Shown piece by piece: positions 6,649 through 13,115 of a stretch of 64,000 bases of DNA. The DNA comes from Haloferax marinum (GTDB lineage: Archaea > Halobacteriota > Halobacteria > Halobacteriales > Haloferacaceae). Positions within the stretch are counted from its first letter, which is position 1. Each line of letters begins with the position of its first letter. The translations under genes and the position numbers were made by a program. The notes below the pieces were generated by a model. That model was given only the letters and a program-made list of their open reading frames with translations. It was not told where the DNA came from and did not search any database. Location: NCBI RefSeq assembly GCF_009674625.1, contig NZ_WKJQ01000001.1:2728001-2792000 (forward strand), read 5' to 3'.

Positions 6649-7737
6649 TCAGACCCCGTCTCGAACTGCGTCTGCGACTCTGTCGAGTGCGACATCCGCC
6701 GCTTCGACATCCGCCGTCAGACTCAAAAATCCGTGCGGCATCGCTGGTTCGTGGTCGTGGACGACGTGGACACCCGCAGCGTCGAGTGCCGCCGCGTACG
6801 CCGTCCCCTCGTTTCGAAGCGGGTCGAATCCAGCGGTGACGACGTATGCGGGCGGGAGGTCTGCGTGTGAGTCTGCCCGAAGCGGTGCGGCAAACGGGTT
6901 GTATCGGTCGACCGCAGACCGTAGGTAGGTGTCGTGCGCCCACAGCACGTCTCGCCGGGTGAGAAGCGGCCCGTCGGCGTTTTCAGTGAGTGAGTCGTGG
7001 TCGTCCGAGAGGTCGGTCATCGGGTACAAGAGGACCTGCCTCTCGATTGCCGGCCCACCGAACTCACGGACGTAGAGACACGTGGCCGCCGCGAGGTTGC
7101 CGCCAGCACTCGTTCCGGCGACTGCGAGTCGGTCGGGGGTTGCACCGATACCGGTGGCGTTGTCTGCGACCCACTCCGTCGCGCGAACGCAGTCTTCGAG
7201 GCCGGCCGGAAACGGGTGTTCGGGTGCGAGTCGGTAGTCGACGGAGACGACGACGTGGCCAGTGCGTCTGGCGAGGCGGCGACAGACGCCGTCGATAGAG
7301 TCCAACGTCCCCATCGCCCAGAGGCCGCCGTGGAAGAAGACGAGAACCGGTGGTGATTGGTCCGGGTCGGGATGATAGACACGCACCGGAATTGCGCCCG
7401 CCGGACCGGGAATTTCGATGTTCGTAACGCGTTCGACGTCGGGGGCGTCCACGGGAGCGAACACGTCGTCTTCGATGCGGCGGGCACTCTCGATTCCGAG
7501 TGCGGACCACTCTGGGATTCCGAGTGTGTCTACCTCGTCGACGACGGTTTGGGCCTGTGGGTCCAGTGTGTCGGCGGCGTCGGCGTCCGAATCGACTGCA
7601 GTGTCGGCGTCCGAATCGACTGCAGTGTCGGCGTCCGAATCGACTGTGGTGTCGGCGTCCGAATCGACTGCAGTGTCGGCGTCCGAATCGACTGTGGTGT
7701 CTCGTCCCGTCGGTGTATCGTCGTCGAAGAGGACCAT
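6649..7737 (-). CDS. HSL/formamidase-like alpha/beta hydrolase with acidic N-terminal repeats
   Basis: A 362-residue hydrolase. The oxyanion motif HGGLW is at 136-140, the nucleophile Ser210 lies in GTSAGGN, and the acid Asp305 (GFDPLRNEG) and base His335 (MPHGF) complete a triad. The HGGxW form is shared by hormone-sensitive-lipase-type esterases and kynurenine formamidases. The N-terminus carries five 8-residue repeats of VDSDADTA type (residues 16-55), an in-frame 24-bp minisatellite. ATG 7737 is chosen; an upstream TTG/GTG-type extension is unlikely. It is divergent from kynureninase with 84 bases between starts, so a role in tryptophan degradation is possible but unproven. Confidence 0.8.
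   Translation of the reverse strand: MVLFDDDTPTGRDTTVDSDADTAVDSDADTTVDSDADTAVDSDADTAVDSDADAADTLDPQAQTVVDEVDTLGIPEWSALGIESARRIEDDVFAPVDAPDVERVTNIEIPGPAGAIPVRVYHPDPDQSPPVLVFFHGGLWAMGTLDSIDGVCRRLARRTGHVVVSVDYRLAPEHPFPAGLEDCVRATEWVADNATGIGATPDRLAVAGTSAGGNLAAATCLYVREFGGPAIERQVLLYPMTDLSDDHDSLTENADGPLLTRRDVLWAHDTYLRSAVDRYNPFAAPLRADSHADLPPAYVVTAGFDPLRNEGTAYAAALDAAGVHVVHDHEPAMPHGFLSLTADVEAADVALDRVADAVRDGV
7579..7698 (-). repeat. Five 24-bp tandem repeats inside the esterase gene
   Basis: Five head-to-tail 24-bp units (7579-7602, 7603-7626, 7627-7650, 7651-7674, 7675-7698). They differ mainly at a CTGCAGT/CTGTGGT position. Being 8 codons long, the array can expand or shrink without a frameshift, adding acidic VDSDADT(A/T) units to a disordered N-terminus. 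Confidence 0.95.
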
Positions 7738-7821
7738 GCCCAGAGGCGCGCAGGCGAGTGTGAAAAACACCCCGCCGTGTGGGCGGCAAAACTACTTGCG
7801 TCGTGCGACCAACTCGCGTCC

Positions 7822-9118: not shown

Positions 9119-9168
9119 GTGCGAGCAAATCAGTCACCAGGACGTGCATGCGAATCAATCACCAGGAA
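9119..9168. repeat. Imperfect 25-bp tandem duplication
   Basis: Two adjacent 25-base units (9119-9143 and 9144-9168) share most positions, including the block TCACCAGGA. A third partial copy starts at 9169. The duplication straddles the stop codon of the small membrane protein at 9155, so it seems to have grown from that gene's 3' end. Confidence 0.7.
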
Positions 9169-9421
9169 GTGCGAGCGCGAACATGAACAACGCCAACACG
9201 CCGATGACGGTGAACAGGATATTCACGAGTGCACGCGGGAGCGAGTCGTCTAGTGCCTTCGTCACGAACATCGCCGCCATCAGCGCAGCACCGAGGAGTA
9301 CAGTGAACGACGTTGGGCCCTCGAATCCCAGTGAGCCTTCGATGAACACCAGATAGAAGACTCCCGTCGCGAACCCCAGCGGCGGAAACAGGAGGATGCT
9401 CGCGTACCTCGAGACGACCAT
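9155..9421 (-). CDS. Small membrane protein, unknown
   Basis: An 88-residue protein with three predicted membrane segments (ILLFPPLGFATGVFYLVFIE, TVLLGAALMAAMFV, LVNILFTVIGVLALFMFALA). ATG 9421 is the only reasonable start. It follows the SDR gene on the same strand by 67 bases and may share its transcript. The 3' end lies in a 25-bp tandem duplication. I do not recognise a named family. Confidence 0.6.
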   Translation of the reverse strand: MVVSRYASILLFPPLGFATGVFYLVFIEGSLGFEGPTSFTVLLGAALMAAMFVTKALDDSLPRALVNILFTVIGVLALFMFALALPGD

Positions 9422-9488
9422 GAGGACGTGTCGGACGACTGCAAAATAAAGTTTCCTCCGCTGACAGGAATGTGAAGTGGGTGCCGAC

Positions 9489-10187
9489 TTACCAGTCGAT
9501 GACCTGCTTGTCGCGCCAGAACTTCCCGGACGGACTCCCCGGTTCGAACCGCGCCAACCACGTCGGTGTCTCCGCACCTTTCTCGACCGGTCGAGACGCC
9601 TCTTGGCCACCCATGTCGGTGCGGACCCATCCGGGGCAGACCGAGTTGGCGATGAGGCCATCGTCGCCGTACTGACCTTCGAGGTAGACGGTCAGGCCGT
9701 TGAGGCCTGTCTTCGAGATTCGATACGATGGAGACCCGCCGGACTGCCCTTCTTCGAGTGCACCCATACCCGACGAGACGTTGACGACGCGGCCACCGTC
9801 GTTCTGGAGGAGAAGGGGGACAGCGTGTTTGCACACGAGCATCGGGCCGCGGAGGTTGACCGCGAGTGTCTGGTCGATGGCATCAGTTGGTTCGGCGACG
9901 ATGTCGTCTCCGAACTCACCGACACCGGCGTTGTTGACGAGGATGTCGAGGCGTCCCTCGCTGGCGAAGATGCCGTCGACGACTTCTTCGATGTCCCCCT
10001 CCTGGGTGACGTCGAGGAGGACACGTTCGGTTCCCTCGGGCGTCTCGTTCGTGACGCTCCGAGACCCGGCGTAGACCGTCGCACCGAGGTCACGGAGGTT
10101 CTCGGCAATCTGCCGGCCGATTCCTCGGTTCGCACCTGTGACGAGAGCGACCTGTCCTTCCAAGTCGTCGTACACGTCGAGTTCCAT
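9489..10187 (-). CDS. Short-chain dehydrogenase/reductase
   Basis: A 232-residue classical SDR. The cofactor motif TGANRGIG is at 17-24, NNAG at 85-88, and the catalytic Ser139, Tyr155 and Lys159 are all present (VNVSSGMG, YRISKTG). NRGIG with the following basic residue suggests NADPH or NADH use; this cannot be settled by eye. The PGWVRTDMGG segment after the active site is close to carbonyl-reductase-like members. It is 102 bases downstream of the terpene-synthase-like gene on the same strand, so it could modify a terpene alcohol, but that is inference only. Confidence 0.85.
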   Translation of the reverse strand: MELDVYDDLEGQVALVTGANRGIGRQIAENLRDLGATVYAGSRSVTNETPEGTERVLLDVTQEGDIEEVVDGIFASEGRLDILVNNAGVGEFGDDIVAEPTDAIDQTLAVNLRGPMLVCKHAVPLLLQNDGGRVVNVSSGMGALEEGQSGGSPSYRISKTGLNGLTVYLEGQYGDDGLIANSVCPGWVRTDMGGQEASRPVEKGAETPTWLARFEPGSPSGKFWRDKQVIDW

Positions 10188-10289
10188 GCTGGGCAGTGAG
10201 GACTCAGGATGGATATGCTCACCGAAGCAGTTCAGTTGTCCCCCACGACAACGATTGGACCAAGTGCCCCGGCGAACTGCACGTCGTGT

Positions 10290-11258
10290 CTACTTCTGGC
10301 CGCGGCTTTCGAGATGAAAACCGTAGACAGTCTCCATCCCGCGGACGTACTCTCGAAGGTCGACCGACTCCGCCACGGGGATGCCCCCCATCAGTTCTGC
10401 ATACTGTCTGGCCCACTCGTCGTGGAACTGGTCTTCGATACCCGCGTCGTGGATTTGGTCGATGAGTTCTTCTGGTGAATACTCGTCGCCGACTAACTCG
10501 TCGACGGTGAGATACCCATCTGAAATGGTTTTGGAGACGACACCGGCCGTGTAGTCTCCCTCGTGGAGTTCTCGTTCCCAGGTCGACACCCAGTTTCCGA
10601 TACGGGCGAGTTTTTGTGCGTCCCAGACCGTTTCTCGGAGTGCACTCAAGTCTTCACAGTCGAATTCCGGAGCGTACATCAGGTCGATGTCTGCGTAGCT
10701 GAACATCACCATGTTGTGCGGCCCGTAGGTGTTGCTCCCGCGCATGTTCATGACGTGGGGGAACGTGTTGAGTAACCAACTGTATTCCATGGCGTTGATT
10801 GCTTGTCGAAAATCGTAGTAGAACAACCGTTCGAACTCGTCGAACCGCGGTGCTCGTTCGAGGGATTCGTAGAACTGGTCCCAGACTCGCTGGGTGAACT
10901 CCAGATACTCGCGGTCGCAGTCGGGGTGGTCGGGCGACGAGTCGGCACTGGGAAACGGAATCTTACGGGCCTGGTCGAACGTTCCCTTGTCGTGGTGGAG
11001 GTCGGCGAGGTCGTCGAGTAACGTCACAAAGAGGGTGAGCAGAAGCTTCTGTTTCCGAGCAGCCTCCGTGTTCTGGCCGGGAACACTAGAGAGACAGATG
11101 TGTGGGAAGACTTCGTAGAGCCACTTCCAGATGTACTCGTCACGCTCACCGATAACGGTCTGATATCGAGTCGTTAGATTCTCGACAGCAGGAGGTAGCG
11201 TGACAGCGTCGATATCCATTTGAGAGATAGACGTGGCGGACGTTCCGTTGTTCGGCAT
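10290..11258 (-). CDS. Class I terpene synthase-like protein
   Basis: A 322-residue all-helical protein. LLDDLADLHHD places an aspartate-rich DDxxD motif at 82-86, and IGNWVSTWERE gives an N-x3-T-x3-E metal-binding (NSE/DTE-type) motif at 222-230. Together these bind the Mg-diphosphate cluster in class I terpene cyclases. Arg173, 49 residues before the second motif, could be the pyrophosphate sensor; a C-terminal Arg-Tyr pair is not evident. A TATA-like CTTATATCT (11264-11272) lies so close to ATG 11258 that translation may really begin at Met14 (11219), giving 309 residues. GC is lower than in flanking core genes. The substrate (geranyl, farnesyl or longer diphosphate) and product are unknown. 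Confidence 0.6.
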   Translation of the reverse strand: MPNNGTSATSISQMDIDAVTLPPAVENLTTRYQTVIGERDEYIWKWLYEVFPHICLSSVPGQNTEAARKQKLLLTLFVTLLDDLADLHHDKGTFDQARKIPFPSADSSPDHPDCDREYLEFTQRVWDQFYESLERAPRFDEFERLFYYDFRQAINAMEYSWLLNTFPHVMNMRGSNTYGPHNMVMFSYADIDLMYAPEFDCEDLSALRETVWDAQKLARIGNWVSTWERELHEGDYTAGVVSKTISDGYLTVDELVGDEYSPEELIDQIHDAGIEDQFHDEWARQYAELMGGIPVAESVDLREYVRGMETVYGFHLESRGQK

Positions 11259-11461
11259 TTAGATATAAGGTGTCTGGGTGTTTTGACGGTGAAACGCAAA
11301 CCGTAGTGGAGATACACTTAGACTGAATACTGATAGGTGTCCCATATTTACGTTTCTATATACAAAGTAAATAAACATGCGGTTAGCGGCATTGTTTCGG
11401 TGCCAACGAGAGCACACAGTGGCGTGGAAACACGCGGAGTCTATCTTGGGCGACCAGACGC

Positions 11462-11914
11462 TCAACGATGCAACTCGAAATCGAAGACCCTGTCAACGTA
11501 GCCACGGAGAAGGGAGCGACCGATAGACGACCACGCCACGTCCATCCAGATTTCCACGACTCGACCCTGTTCGTGGCGATGTCGGCCAGTTCCGTCGAAT
11601 CGGATCGTCGCGTTAGATGGGGGAATACGTCCGACCTTCTCGGTGTGCGTTCCTTCGAAGTACCATTGTGTGTGTACAAACTCGTCGTCCGCCCAGAGGT
11701 CCAGCGGCTCGATTGTGCAGTCCGGACACGCACGAATGAACAGTCCTGCGAGTCGTCGGTACTGTTCTCTGTCGAGCGTCACTCCACCGGGGAACCCGTG
11801 GCCTTGGAAGTCTGACGCGTAGATATCACGAATCGCGTCGAGGTCGTGGTCGTTCCAGACTTCGTCGAAGTCCCGGCGGCTAATCGCTTTTCTGACAGCG
11901 GCTGGTTGGGTCAT
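11462..11914 (-). CDS. SnoaL-like (NTF2-fold) polyketide/ester cyclase family protein
   Basis: About 150 residues with the SnoaL pattern: an opening helix (DEVWNDHDLDAIRDIYASDFQGHG), then GVTLDREQYRRLAGLFIRACPDCTIEPLDLWADDEFVHTQ and strand-rich FEGTHT...ATIRFDG, ending in VVEIWMDVAWSS. These small barrel proteins act as cyclases, isomerases or hydrolases in secondary metabolism. ATG 11914 is preferred; in-frame ATGs at 11956 and 11977 would lengthen it. It lies 203 bases upstream of the terpene-synthase-like gene on the same strand, with an AT-rich gap between them. Confidence 0.65.
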   Translation of the reverse strand: MTQPAAVRKAISRRDFDEVWNDHDLDAIRDIYASDFQGHGFPGGVTLDREQYRRLAGLFIRACPDCTIEPLDLWADDEFVHTQWYFEGTHTEKVGRIPPSNATIRFDGTGRHRHEQGRVVEIWMDVAWSSIGRSLLRGYVDRVFDFELHR

Positions 11915-12139
11915 CACGAATTCCTGCTCGTAGTTCTGTCTGAACCAGTTTGACATGAAAATGTCGTTGTCTCGCATCGTTTGTCCGTGTACGCTCGACG
12001 ACCAGAGTGTGCTCGAACGGATAGGCCAGTACAGCGACGACGTCGTCGCCTCACGAGGTCTGTCTGAACGACTGACGCACAGTAGGGCTGTCGACGACCG
12101 TTCGCACGGAGGCACCGCGCTACGCAAAACGACCGGCGG

Positions 12140-12571
12140 TTATTTTACGTCGACACCCACTTCGCGGAACTCGTCGCCGGTCCACTCGTACGCATTCATC
12201 CGGCCGTCGGGGTTGCAGATGAGATAGACGTATCCTGTCCACGACGCCTGTTCCCGGTCGGTGGCGCTCGGAATCGGTGCCGACTCTGGATGCGAGTGGT
12301 AGAACCCGACCACGTCCGCGCCCACCGATTCGACGTCGTCGATGACGGCGACCGTCTCCGCGGGGTCGAGTTCGTAGGCGACTCGCGGGTCGGGTGCGAT
12401 ATTCGAAACGGGTCGGACAGAAGAGATAGAGTCCGAGTCTTCGTCACCGACGAGGACGCCACAGACCTCTTCGGGCGGGTCTCTGGCGGCACCCTCGCGA
12501 GTGTGCGACAGTATCGAGTCGCGGGCGTGTGACGAGACCGAGAGGTTACTCGAAGTCACGGCGCATCGCAA
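12140..12571 (-). CDS. JAMM/MPN+ metalloprotease, desampylase-like
   Basis: A 143-residue single JAMM domain. The zinc-site motif is complete: Glu35 in EEVCGVLVG, then His92-x-His94 followed by seven residues, Ser102 and Asp105 (YHSHPESAPIPSATD). In Haloferax volcanii the similar HvJAMM1 removes ubiquitin-like SAMP proteins from targets and its gene has, as I recall, the same neighbours. The proposed function is therefore cleavage of isopeptide-linked SAMPs. The start overlaps the 3' end of idi by 26 bases; GTG at 12559 is an alternative. Co-transcription with idi is likely. Confidence 0.8.
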   Translation of the reverse strand: MRCAVTSSNLSVSSHARDSILSHTREGAARDPPEEVCGVLVGDEDSDSISSVRPVSNIAPDPRVAYELDPAETVAVIDDVESVGADVVGFYHSHPESAPIPSATDREQASWTGYVYLICNPDGRMNAYEWTGDEFREVGVDVK

Positions 12572-13115
12572 TCTCGAACCACGGGCACAGACGCAGTTGG
12601 CGGTACCATTCGGGGTGGTCGTGGAGGTGCTCGTAGTCGACCCAGAGCATCCCTGCGATTTCCTCTTCGTCGGGGTCGAGCGAGGTGTCTTCGAGCGTGA
12701 CCTTCAGGACGGCACAGACCTCCCACTCGAGGCCGGCGTTCTCGTAGTAACGCTTGTACTCGAACTTGTCCGTGACACGGAGGTCGGAGTACTGGTCGGG
12801 CGTGATGCCGAGTTCCTCTTCGAGACGTTCTTCGGTCGCGTCTTCCTGCGATTGGCCTTCGACGGGGTGGGAGGCGACGGTGCCGTCCCAGTGGGTGTCC
12901 CACAGGCGCTTGTTCGGTGCACGCTGTGCGAGGAGCAGTTGGCCCTCCTCGTTGAACACGAGACAGGTAAACGCGCGGTGGCGAATGCCGTCGCCCGTGT
13001 GGGCTTCGAGACGGTTTACGGTCCCCTCGGCGTTGTCGTCGGAGTCGACTGCGATGACGTCCTGTGCCGCGTTCTTGTGAAGTTCCGTGGCCTCGTCGGC
13101 CGCTGCATTGCTCAT
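12546..13115 (-). CDS. idi: Type 1 isopentenyl-diphosphate isomerase-like Nudix protein
   Basis: A 189-residue IDI-1/Nudix-fold protein expected to interconvert IPP and DMAPP for isoprenoid synthesis. Metal-site residues match the bacterial enzyme in spacing: His39 and His46, His83 in ASHP, and Glu130/Glu132 in LEWEVC. The Nudix-like helix EDATEERLEEELG is at 91-103. The catalytic Cys of the classical motif (NSVCGHP in E. coli) is replaced by Ala81 (WDGTVASHP). I believe haloarchaeal homologues commonly share this, so the enzyme may use another residue or have a different activity. Start ATG 13115. It overlaps the JAMM gene downstream. Confidence 0.75.
   Translation of the reverse strand: MSNAAADEATELHKNAAQDVIAVDSDDNAEGTVNRLEAHTGDGIRHRAFTCLVFNEEGQLLLAQRAPNKRLWDTHWDGTVASHPVEGQSQEDATEERLEEELGITPDQYSDLRVTDKFEYKRYYENAGLEWEVCAVLKVTLEDTSLDPDEEEIAGMLWVDYEHLHDHPEWYRQLRLCPWFEIAMRRDFE

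Follow-up and report, generated by a model that had tools for sequence, protein, structure and literature searches.

The window analysed here is a 64,000-nucleotide stretch of the Haloferax marinum genome (assembly GCF_009674625.1, positions 2,728,001 to 2,792,000 of the 3.07-Mb contig NZ_WKJQ01000001.1), and our subject is a gene within it whose product resembles class I terpene synthases. Six open reading frames (ORFs) follow one another on the minus strand, arranged as a first-pass annotation, made from the letters alone, had described: idi (isopentenyl diphosphate isomerase), a JAMM-type desampylase, a SnoaL-like protein, the synthase-like protein, a short-chain dehydrogenase/reductase (SDR) and a small membrane protein (Table 1). 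We consider it probable that the product of the synthase-like gene is a class I terpene synthase from a clade without a name in the family libraries, that the gene was inserted together with the SnoaL gene, and that its family is tied to isoprenoid and sensory genes, with a product that is probably made on demand. The synthase itself probably starts at the second ATG of the called frame, because residues 1–12 were modelled with a predicted local distance difference test score (pLDDT) below 50 and most alignment rows do not extend to them. Internal starts are also probable for the SnoaL and membrane ORFs, the latter thus not lying within the SDR gene, and the TATA-like element ahead of the synthase could possibly provide it with its own promoter.

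Table 1. Features of the window locus (window coordinates) and of two fusion genes at bacterial loci (locus coordinates)
Feature	Position	Strand	Basis and remarks
Class I terpene-synthase-like gene	10290..11258	-	Called frame 322 aa; 309 aa from the probable start, ATG 11219
Aspartate-rich metal motif DDLAD, residues 82-86	11001..11015	-	Family alignment
NSE-type metal motif NWVSTWERE, residues 222-230	10569..10595	-	Family alignments
SnoaL-like ORF	11462..12127	-	PF07366 E 6.6e-19, PF12680 E 5.2e-16; probable start ATG 11914
Insert of ~1.9 kb, synthase and SnoaL	10229..12146	.	blastn edges against 14 congeners; GC
TATA-like element TTATAT	11263..11268	-	Upstream of probable start 11219; read from sequence
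SDR oxidoreductase, flanking core gene	9489..10187	-	PF00106 E 9e-38
Desampylase (JAMM), flanking core gene	12140..12571	-	NF041370 at 190.3 bits (cut-off 130 bits)
Type-1 IPP isomerase (idi), flanking core gene	12546..13115	-	PRK03759 126.5 bits, just below the 127-bit cut-off; TIGR02150 also just under
Small membrane ORF, flanking	9155..9661	-	No family match; probable start 9421
DXS-synthase fusion	L126:3840-6587		915 aa
DXS-synthase fusion	L131:6051-8861		936 aa

An AlphaFold2 model of the synthase-like protein, built from a 28-row alignment, is a helical bundle (pLDDT 92.5, predicted template modelling score 0.90). Comparison of this model with the PDB by Foldseek returned 36 chains (about 10 proteins) at an expectation value (E) of 1e-3 or below, of which 35 are terpene or isoprene synthases and one is a farnesyl diphosphate (FPP) synthase. 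The best match was T-muurolol synthase (9hqz; E 7.4e-5, probability 1.00), with a template modelling (TM) score of ~0.6, and the kinship to known terpene synthases that the model indicates would therefore be distant, at the level of the fold. A relative from Methanofollis, modelled separately from 27 rows, gave 24 chains at the same threshold (23 terpene synthases and one FPP synthase), so that the alpha-helical fold of class I terpenoid synthases is found in both predicted models. Among predicted viral structures (BFVD) the best match was a ‘Terpenoid synthase’ of Orpheovirus (E 0.03, probability 1.00). A viral origin of the gene was considered and rejected: two pattern-based IMG/VR scans yielded no relative, and the BFVD match is at fold level only.

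At the level of sequence, the connection to known families runs through relatives. Within a set of 27 chosen by hand, four of which are near-identical Methanofollis-type rows, 15 matched PF19086 (Terpene_syn_C_2) at E ≤ 1 (best 4.7e-8) and three matched PF03936 (best E 0.0024). The Methanofollis relative aligned with positions 4–179 of the 199-position PF19086 profile, covering both metal motifs, at 21.4 bits against a cut-off of 23.7. Weak matches to the PDB sequences of Stt4548, Sat1646 and terpenoid synthase 18 fell on the NSE helix, and the other weak ones were to unrelated proteins; a Rep_fac_C match of the window protein (E 0.14) was dismissed as chance. A PF19086 scan of 40 planctomycete genomes gave no match but is uninformative, its control genomes being likewise silent.

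Passages of a review (PMC10563020) describe DDxxD/E and NSE/DTE as the conserved motifs of class I terpene synthases, and the window protein has both, the first as DDLAD and the second as N222, T226 and E230. Conservation was assessed in a haloarchaeal alignment (A1; 28 rows including the window, from 30 places less two pieces of a frame-shifted copy in genome G065) and in a wider one (A2; 27 rows hand-chosen for breadth). Residues D83, N222, T226, R229, E230 and D235 are identical in every row of both (28/28 and 27/27), residue 86 is D or E in 28/28 A1 rows, and 139 residues separate D83 from N222. Canonical bacterial terpene synthases also carry a C-terminal R-Y pair downstream of the NSE motif; the A1 consensus has a WxRRY stretch near 282–286, with R284 in 14/28 A1 and 3/27 A2 rows. 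The fold search proposed with the first-pass annotation for the product of 10290–11258 thus had class I terpene synthases as its best matches, and the description of that product as class I terpene-synthase-like, with metal motifs at residues 82–86 and 222–230, is upheld by the fold, by both motifs and by the sequence link through relatives. Separately, an NDLSD form, with Asn for the first metal-motif Asp, occurs in the haloarchaeal copies L022, L023, L028 and L030 and also in L137 and L138, and genome G033 holds three synthase copies, two of them with NDLSD.

Homologues were found in 25 of 98 genomes of relatives (own included), representing 20 of 54 genera; the 14 remaining genomes of the genus had none. 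A phylum-wide draw placed them in 26 of 294 genomes (own included), relatives of Methanohalobium and Methanofollis among them, and a draw around a planctomycete genome in 5 of 294 (centre included). A pattern-based scan of the collection confirmed 86 loci, the best 80 of which were kept; these 80 belong mostly to Halobacteria, with Methanohalobium and Methanofollis metagenome-assembled genomes (MAGs) in addition and, among bacteria, Planctomycetota, Gribaldobacteria, Parcubacteria and one unassigned bacterium. Several of the loci from bacteria are on short MAG contigs; kinase-adjacent synthases are found on long contigs as well (L222 on 7.7 Mb; L224 and L225 on 9.5 Mb). In a tree of 59 rows, the 40 haloarchaeal rows form a single clade (100/100), adjoined by the methanogens and one bacterial MAG (99/99), while nine rows from the planctomycete phylum form another (100/99); the window synthase pairs with that of Halovenus carboxidivorans (99/90). 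Six plasmid records with a family member were found, and in all six it is labelled ‘hypothetical protein’. Broken fragments of the synthase (L175, L178, L180 and L182), some with in-frame stops, were seen in genomes G333 and G290, of the same phylum and outside the order, where they suggest loss of the gene.

The surroundings of the window gene were compared with those in 14 congeners, all of which have the order kynureninase – SDR – desampylase – idi – Lrp – carA, uninterrupted by a synthase or SnoaL gene; idi is present in all 15 genomes of the genus, and a stretch matching the membrane ORF adjoins the SDR in four of the 14. The congeners have ~31–77 bp between SDR and desampylase, at the site of the ~1.9-kb insert in the window, and blastn matches to them stop at 10224–10228 and restart at 12147–12165. 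The GC fraction is 0.554 across 10229–12146, compared to 0.632 in the SDR and 0.628 over JAMM–idi. On this genomic comparison, the synthase and SnoaL genes arrived by insertion between the core SDR and desampylase–idi genes, and the SDR is older than the insert. The lower GC of the synthase region and its later insertion beside core genes, both noted in the first-pass annotation, are thereby borne out. Elsewhere in the window, an acidic DSDADT/VDSDAD repeat (7530–7700) lies near the start of an alpha/beta hydrolase ORF (6649–7770, minus strand).

Neighbouring genes were counted at 77 of the 80 loci, those with a called synthase gene (L105, L129 and L132 were missed), which became 47 after removal of loci at least 70% identical. 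Near and far genes come from a home-made ORF caller with errors (it missed the SDR of L086) that are common to both sets. With local hidden Markov models (HMMs), Bat-like, PAS-kinase or HalOD1 genes made up 25 of 90 immediate neighbours compared to 9 of 271 genes at ranks 4–7 (Fisher p 4e-10, which overstates independence, as loci less than 70% identical are still related), a near count that is biased because these HMMs were built from clusters recurring beside the synthase. The Pfam counts, which are free of this bias, gave PAS_9 in 19/90 immediate neighbours, HATPase_c in 12/90, BAT in 10/90, HTH_10 in 10/90 and response regulators in 5/90; among 81 far genes, HTH_10 occurred twice and each of the others, lying outside the first 25 of 128 families, at most once. 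A sensor gene lies within two genes of the synthase in 26/47 loci, compared to 4/47 at ranks 5–6, where fewer genes fell within the stored DNA. On the six annotated plasmids, the synthase adjoins a gene for a PAS protein, a bacterio-opsin activator, a histidine kinase with PAS domain or a helix-turn-helix protein at five loci (three without the helix-turn-helix genes), and HalOD1 lies within two genes at four. The recurrence of sensors in these gene neighbourhoods suggests conditional production of a terpene.

Bacterial members of the family are, in addition, linked to isoprenoid genes. In two planctomycete MAGs (L126 and L131) a single ORF encodes a full-length DXS, with all three domains, N-terminal to the synthase domain; the two DXS parts are 73% identical. 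A decayed DXS is fused to the synthase domain in L220 and L221 (by Pfam) and in L222 (by blastp, E 5e-11), and none was detected in the N-terminal part of the L223 synthase ORF. The chromosome-level MAG of L135 has the order synthase – FAD oxidoreductase (Pfam FAD_binding_3; the ‘geranylgeranyl-reductase look’ of this protein is our own label) – IspH, and IspH also lies downstream of the synthase in L127. In the Gribaldobacteria locus L129, an ORF that is open where the contig ends (2–2963) combines a NUDIX domain, 33% identical to the window Idi, with a polyprenyl synthetase, and is followed by a small gene, the synthase, a histidine kinase 5 bases on and a response regulator. By gene order and fusion, the synthase is tied in bacteria to enzymes that make isoprenoid precursors; the DXS fusion points to channelling that begins at pathway entry. 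Methyltransferases recur as well: the synthase of L225 is fused to an S-adenosylmethionine (SAM) methyltransferase and adjoins a 1797-aa protein kinase/GAF/PAS/histidine kinase, and methyltransferase genes adjoin the synthases of L226 and L228. The genome of L224–L226 (G488, 9.5-Mb contig) was seen to hold two divergent synthases in tandem, next to a protein kinase, together with the synthase–methyltransferase fusion and another synthase beside a methyltransferase gene. On a Halobellus limi plasmid (L248:5961-8250), a methyltransferase and a prenyltransferase/squalene-oxidase-repeat gene lie next to the synthase on the opposite strand.

In the mechanism that we envisage, the alpha-helical bundle would bind three Mg2+ through DDLAD and N-x3-T-x3-E and ionise an allylic prenyl diphosphate, and would then release a terpene, either cyclic or linear. 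The likeliest substrates are FPP and geranylgeranyl diphosphate (GGPP), the intermediates of isoprenoid synthesis in an archaeon. Since the synthase is tied to isoprenoid precursor genes in bacteria and to sensory and regulatory genes in archaea and bacteria, the product would probably be made on demand, cued by light, redox or other signals. Besides the bias of the local-HMM count, several observations weigh against this account. The TM-scores are moderate (~0.6) and compatible with the wider isoprenoid-synthase fold too. The window protein has no Pfam match above chance (nothing at E ≤ 1 to PF19086, whose gathering score is thus not reached), no NCBIfam match and no PDB sequence match, and in profile searches no PDB sequence reached significance. 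The first metal-motif residue is D82 in 24/28 A1 rows and N in the other four, as in 1/27 A2 rows, and the residue after the NSE Asn is W, L or V rather than D. Bacterial terpene synthases have a diphosphate-sensor Arg 46 residues ahead of the NSE Asn; the corresponding position 176 is not conserved here (R in 6/28 A1 and 3/27 A2 rows), although R39, R208 and R219, each in 28/28 A1 and 26/27 A2 rows, could take its place. With regard to regulation, Pfam shows no enrichment of HalOD1 among immediate neighbours (3/90, compared to 2/81 far genes), 25/47 loci have no sensor detected in adjacent genes, and the window synthase has no sensor gene beside it.

A reading that would extend the class I synthase interpretation is a terpenoid signalling module common to archaea and bacteria, in which terpene synthesis is controlled by, or the terpene sensed by, neighbouring PAS/Bat/HalOD1 or histidine-kinase proteins. 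The DXS fusion of some bacteria would then unite precursor entry and product release in one polypeptide, the product would perhaps be volatile, and the window organism would have an inserted copy of the synthase part. A signalling pair of product and sensor is possible from the gene neighbourhoods, and we offer the full module tentatively, as an idea that may well prove wrong. The same sensory neighbours in archaea and bacteria, and the NDLSD variants, would also suit a non-catalytic isoprenoid sensor, in which the terpene-synthase fold would bind a prenyl diphosphate and signal the isoprenoid status to adjacent PAS/Bat/histidine-kinase proteins. However, mere binding would not need two metal motifs kept near-perfectly in archaea and bacteria, the methyltransferase fusion of L225 looks enzymatic, and 25/47 loci lack a detected adjacent sensor; we regard a sensor of this kind as unlikely. 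Least plausible of all, to the point that we give it hardly any credence, is an odd type of isoprenyl diphosphate synthase acting in chain elongation. That identity would account for the superfamily fold and for the FPP synthase among the Foldseek chains of the window protein, but the protein has no second DDxxD and carries an NSE motif at its expected place, and neither it nor any of the 27 relatives matches polyprenyl_synt (PF00348) at E ≤ 1.

The remaining alternative concerns the neighbours. The first-pass annotation had proposed a local pathway, in which idi supplies precursor, the synthase cyclises it, and SnoaL and SDR tailor the product, a proposal that draws on the same-strand series in the window and is favoured also by the Idi-like/prenyl-synthetase ORF accompanying the synthase in L129. 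However, SDR, desampylase and idi stand together in all 14 congeners where the synthase is absent; the insertion site explains why idi and SDR flank the inserted genes, and the same-strand order is therefore no evidence for a pathway. In tblastn searches of the window neighbours against 108 other synthase loci (96 distinct places), idi was near the synthase in one, a bacterium, desampylase in one, SnoaL in two (27% identical, ~6–7 kb off), SDR in 10 (paralogues 27–34% identical) and the membrane ORF in none, and in none of the 108 were idi, SnoaL, synthase and SDR kept together. The TATA-like box directly upstream of the synthase also argues against a joint pathway, as does the closest SnoaL homologue found (56% identical), which in genome G039 lies on a contig other than that of the synthase. 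SnoaL was accordingly rejected as a synthase partner, being frequent among haloarchaea (38/78 genomes, own included) yet near only those two synthase loci, weakly. One observation runs the other way and tells against our dismissal of the neighbours: an SDR ~28% identical to that of the window directly adjoins the synthase, divergently on the opposite strand, in L086, L093 and L097 (two of them among the 47 non-redundant loci), three haloarchaeal loci that group near the window synthase in the tree (93/67), and the SDR is thus a possible partner in that subgroup. Lack of co-occurrence of the neighbours across genomes had been named in the annotation itself as grounds for abandoning its proposal; by that measure the local pathway, which we judge very unlikely, falls, while the idea of the enzyme stands.

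Known class I terpene synthases come from plants and fungi, from bacteria and amoebae, and from some animals and giant viruses. No archaeal one is described in the titles and abstracts of the full-text literature searched (subscription papers and preprints being outside that scope). Passages of one genome study (PMC8600319) state that eight Halomicroarcula genomes hold two antiSMASH terpene clusters apiece, with no enzyme named there, and cite Wang et al. 2019, who reportedly noted such clusters in Halobacteria. Halomicroarcula also has a member of the synthase family (L062). In general, antiSMASH terpene calls often rest on squalene/phytoene synthase. The family hints at terpene compounds in archaea. 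It occurs in cultured haloarchaea under the label ‘hypothetical protein’ and is directly testable; the DXS–terpene-synthase fusion and the sensor-gene neighbourhood, both unexpected, would connect signal transduction with the metabolism of isoprenoids in two domains of life.

Among known systems, the window protein is most readily compared with the bacterial class I terpene synthases (PF19086; 9hqz, hydropyrene synthase 8b4l and tolypothrichol synthase 9kgb), with which it shares (i) the alpha-helical fold, and (ii) DDxxD/E and N-x3-S/T-x3-E motifs ~140 residues apart with R before the final E. Unlike them, it falls below PF19086 detection, has NW/NL rather than ND and lacks a conserved diphosphate-sensor Arg, and its family has DXS fusions, sensor-gene neighbours and many archaeal members. 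Isoprenyl diphosphate synthases (PF00348) have in common with it the superfamily fold and the first aspartate-rich motif, and differ in the features set out above. The Orpheovirus terpenoid synthase shares the fold at an identity of only ~10%. Systems that pair a terpene synthase with a methyltransferase are known for 2-methylisoborneol and sodorifen, and G488, with one synthase fused to a SAM methyltransferase and another beside one, resembles these; its copies, however, form a distant branch, and no methyltransferase adjoins the window gene.

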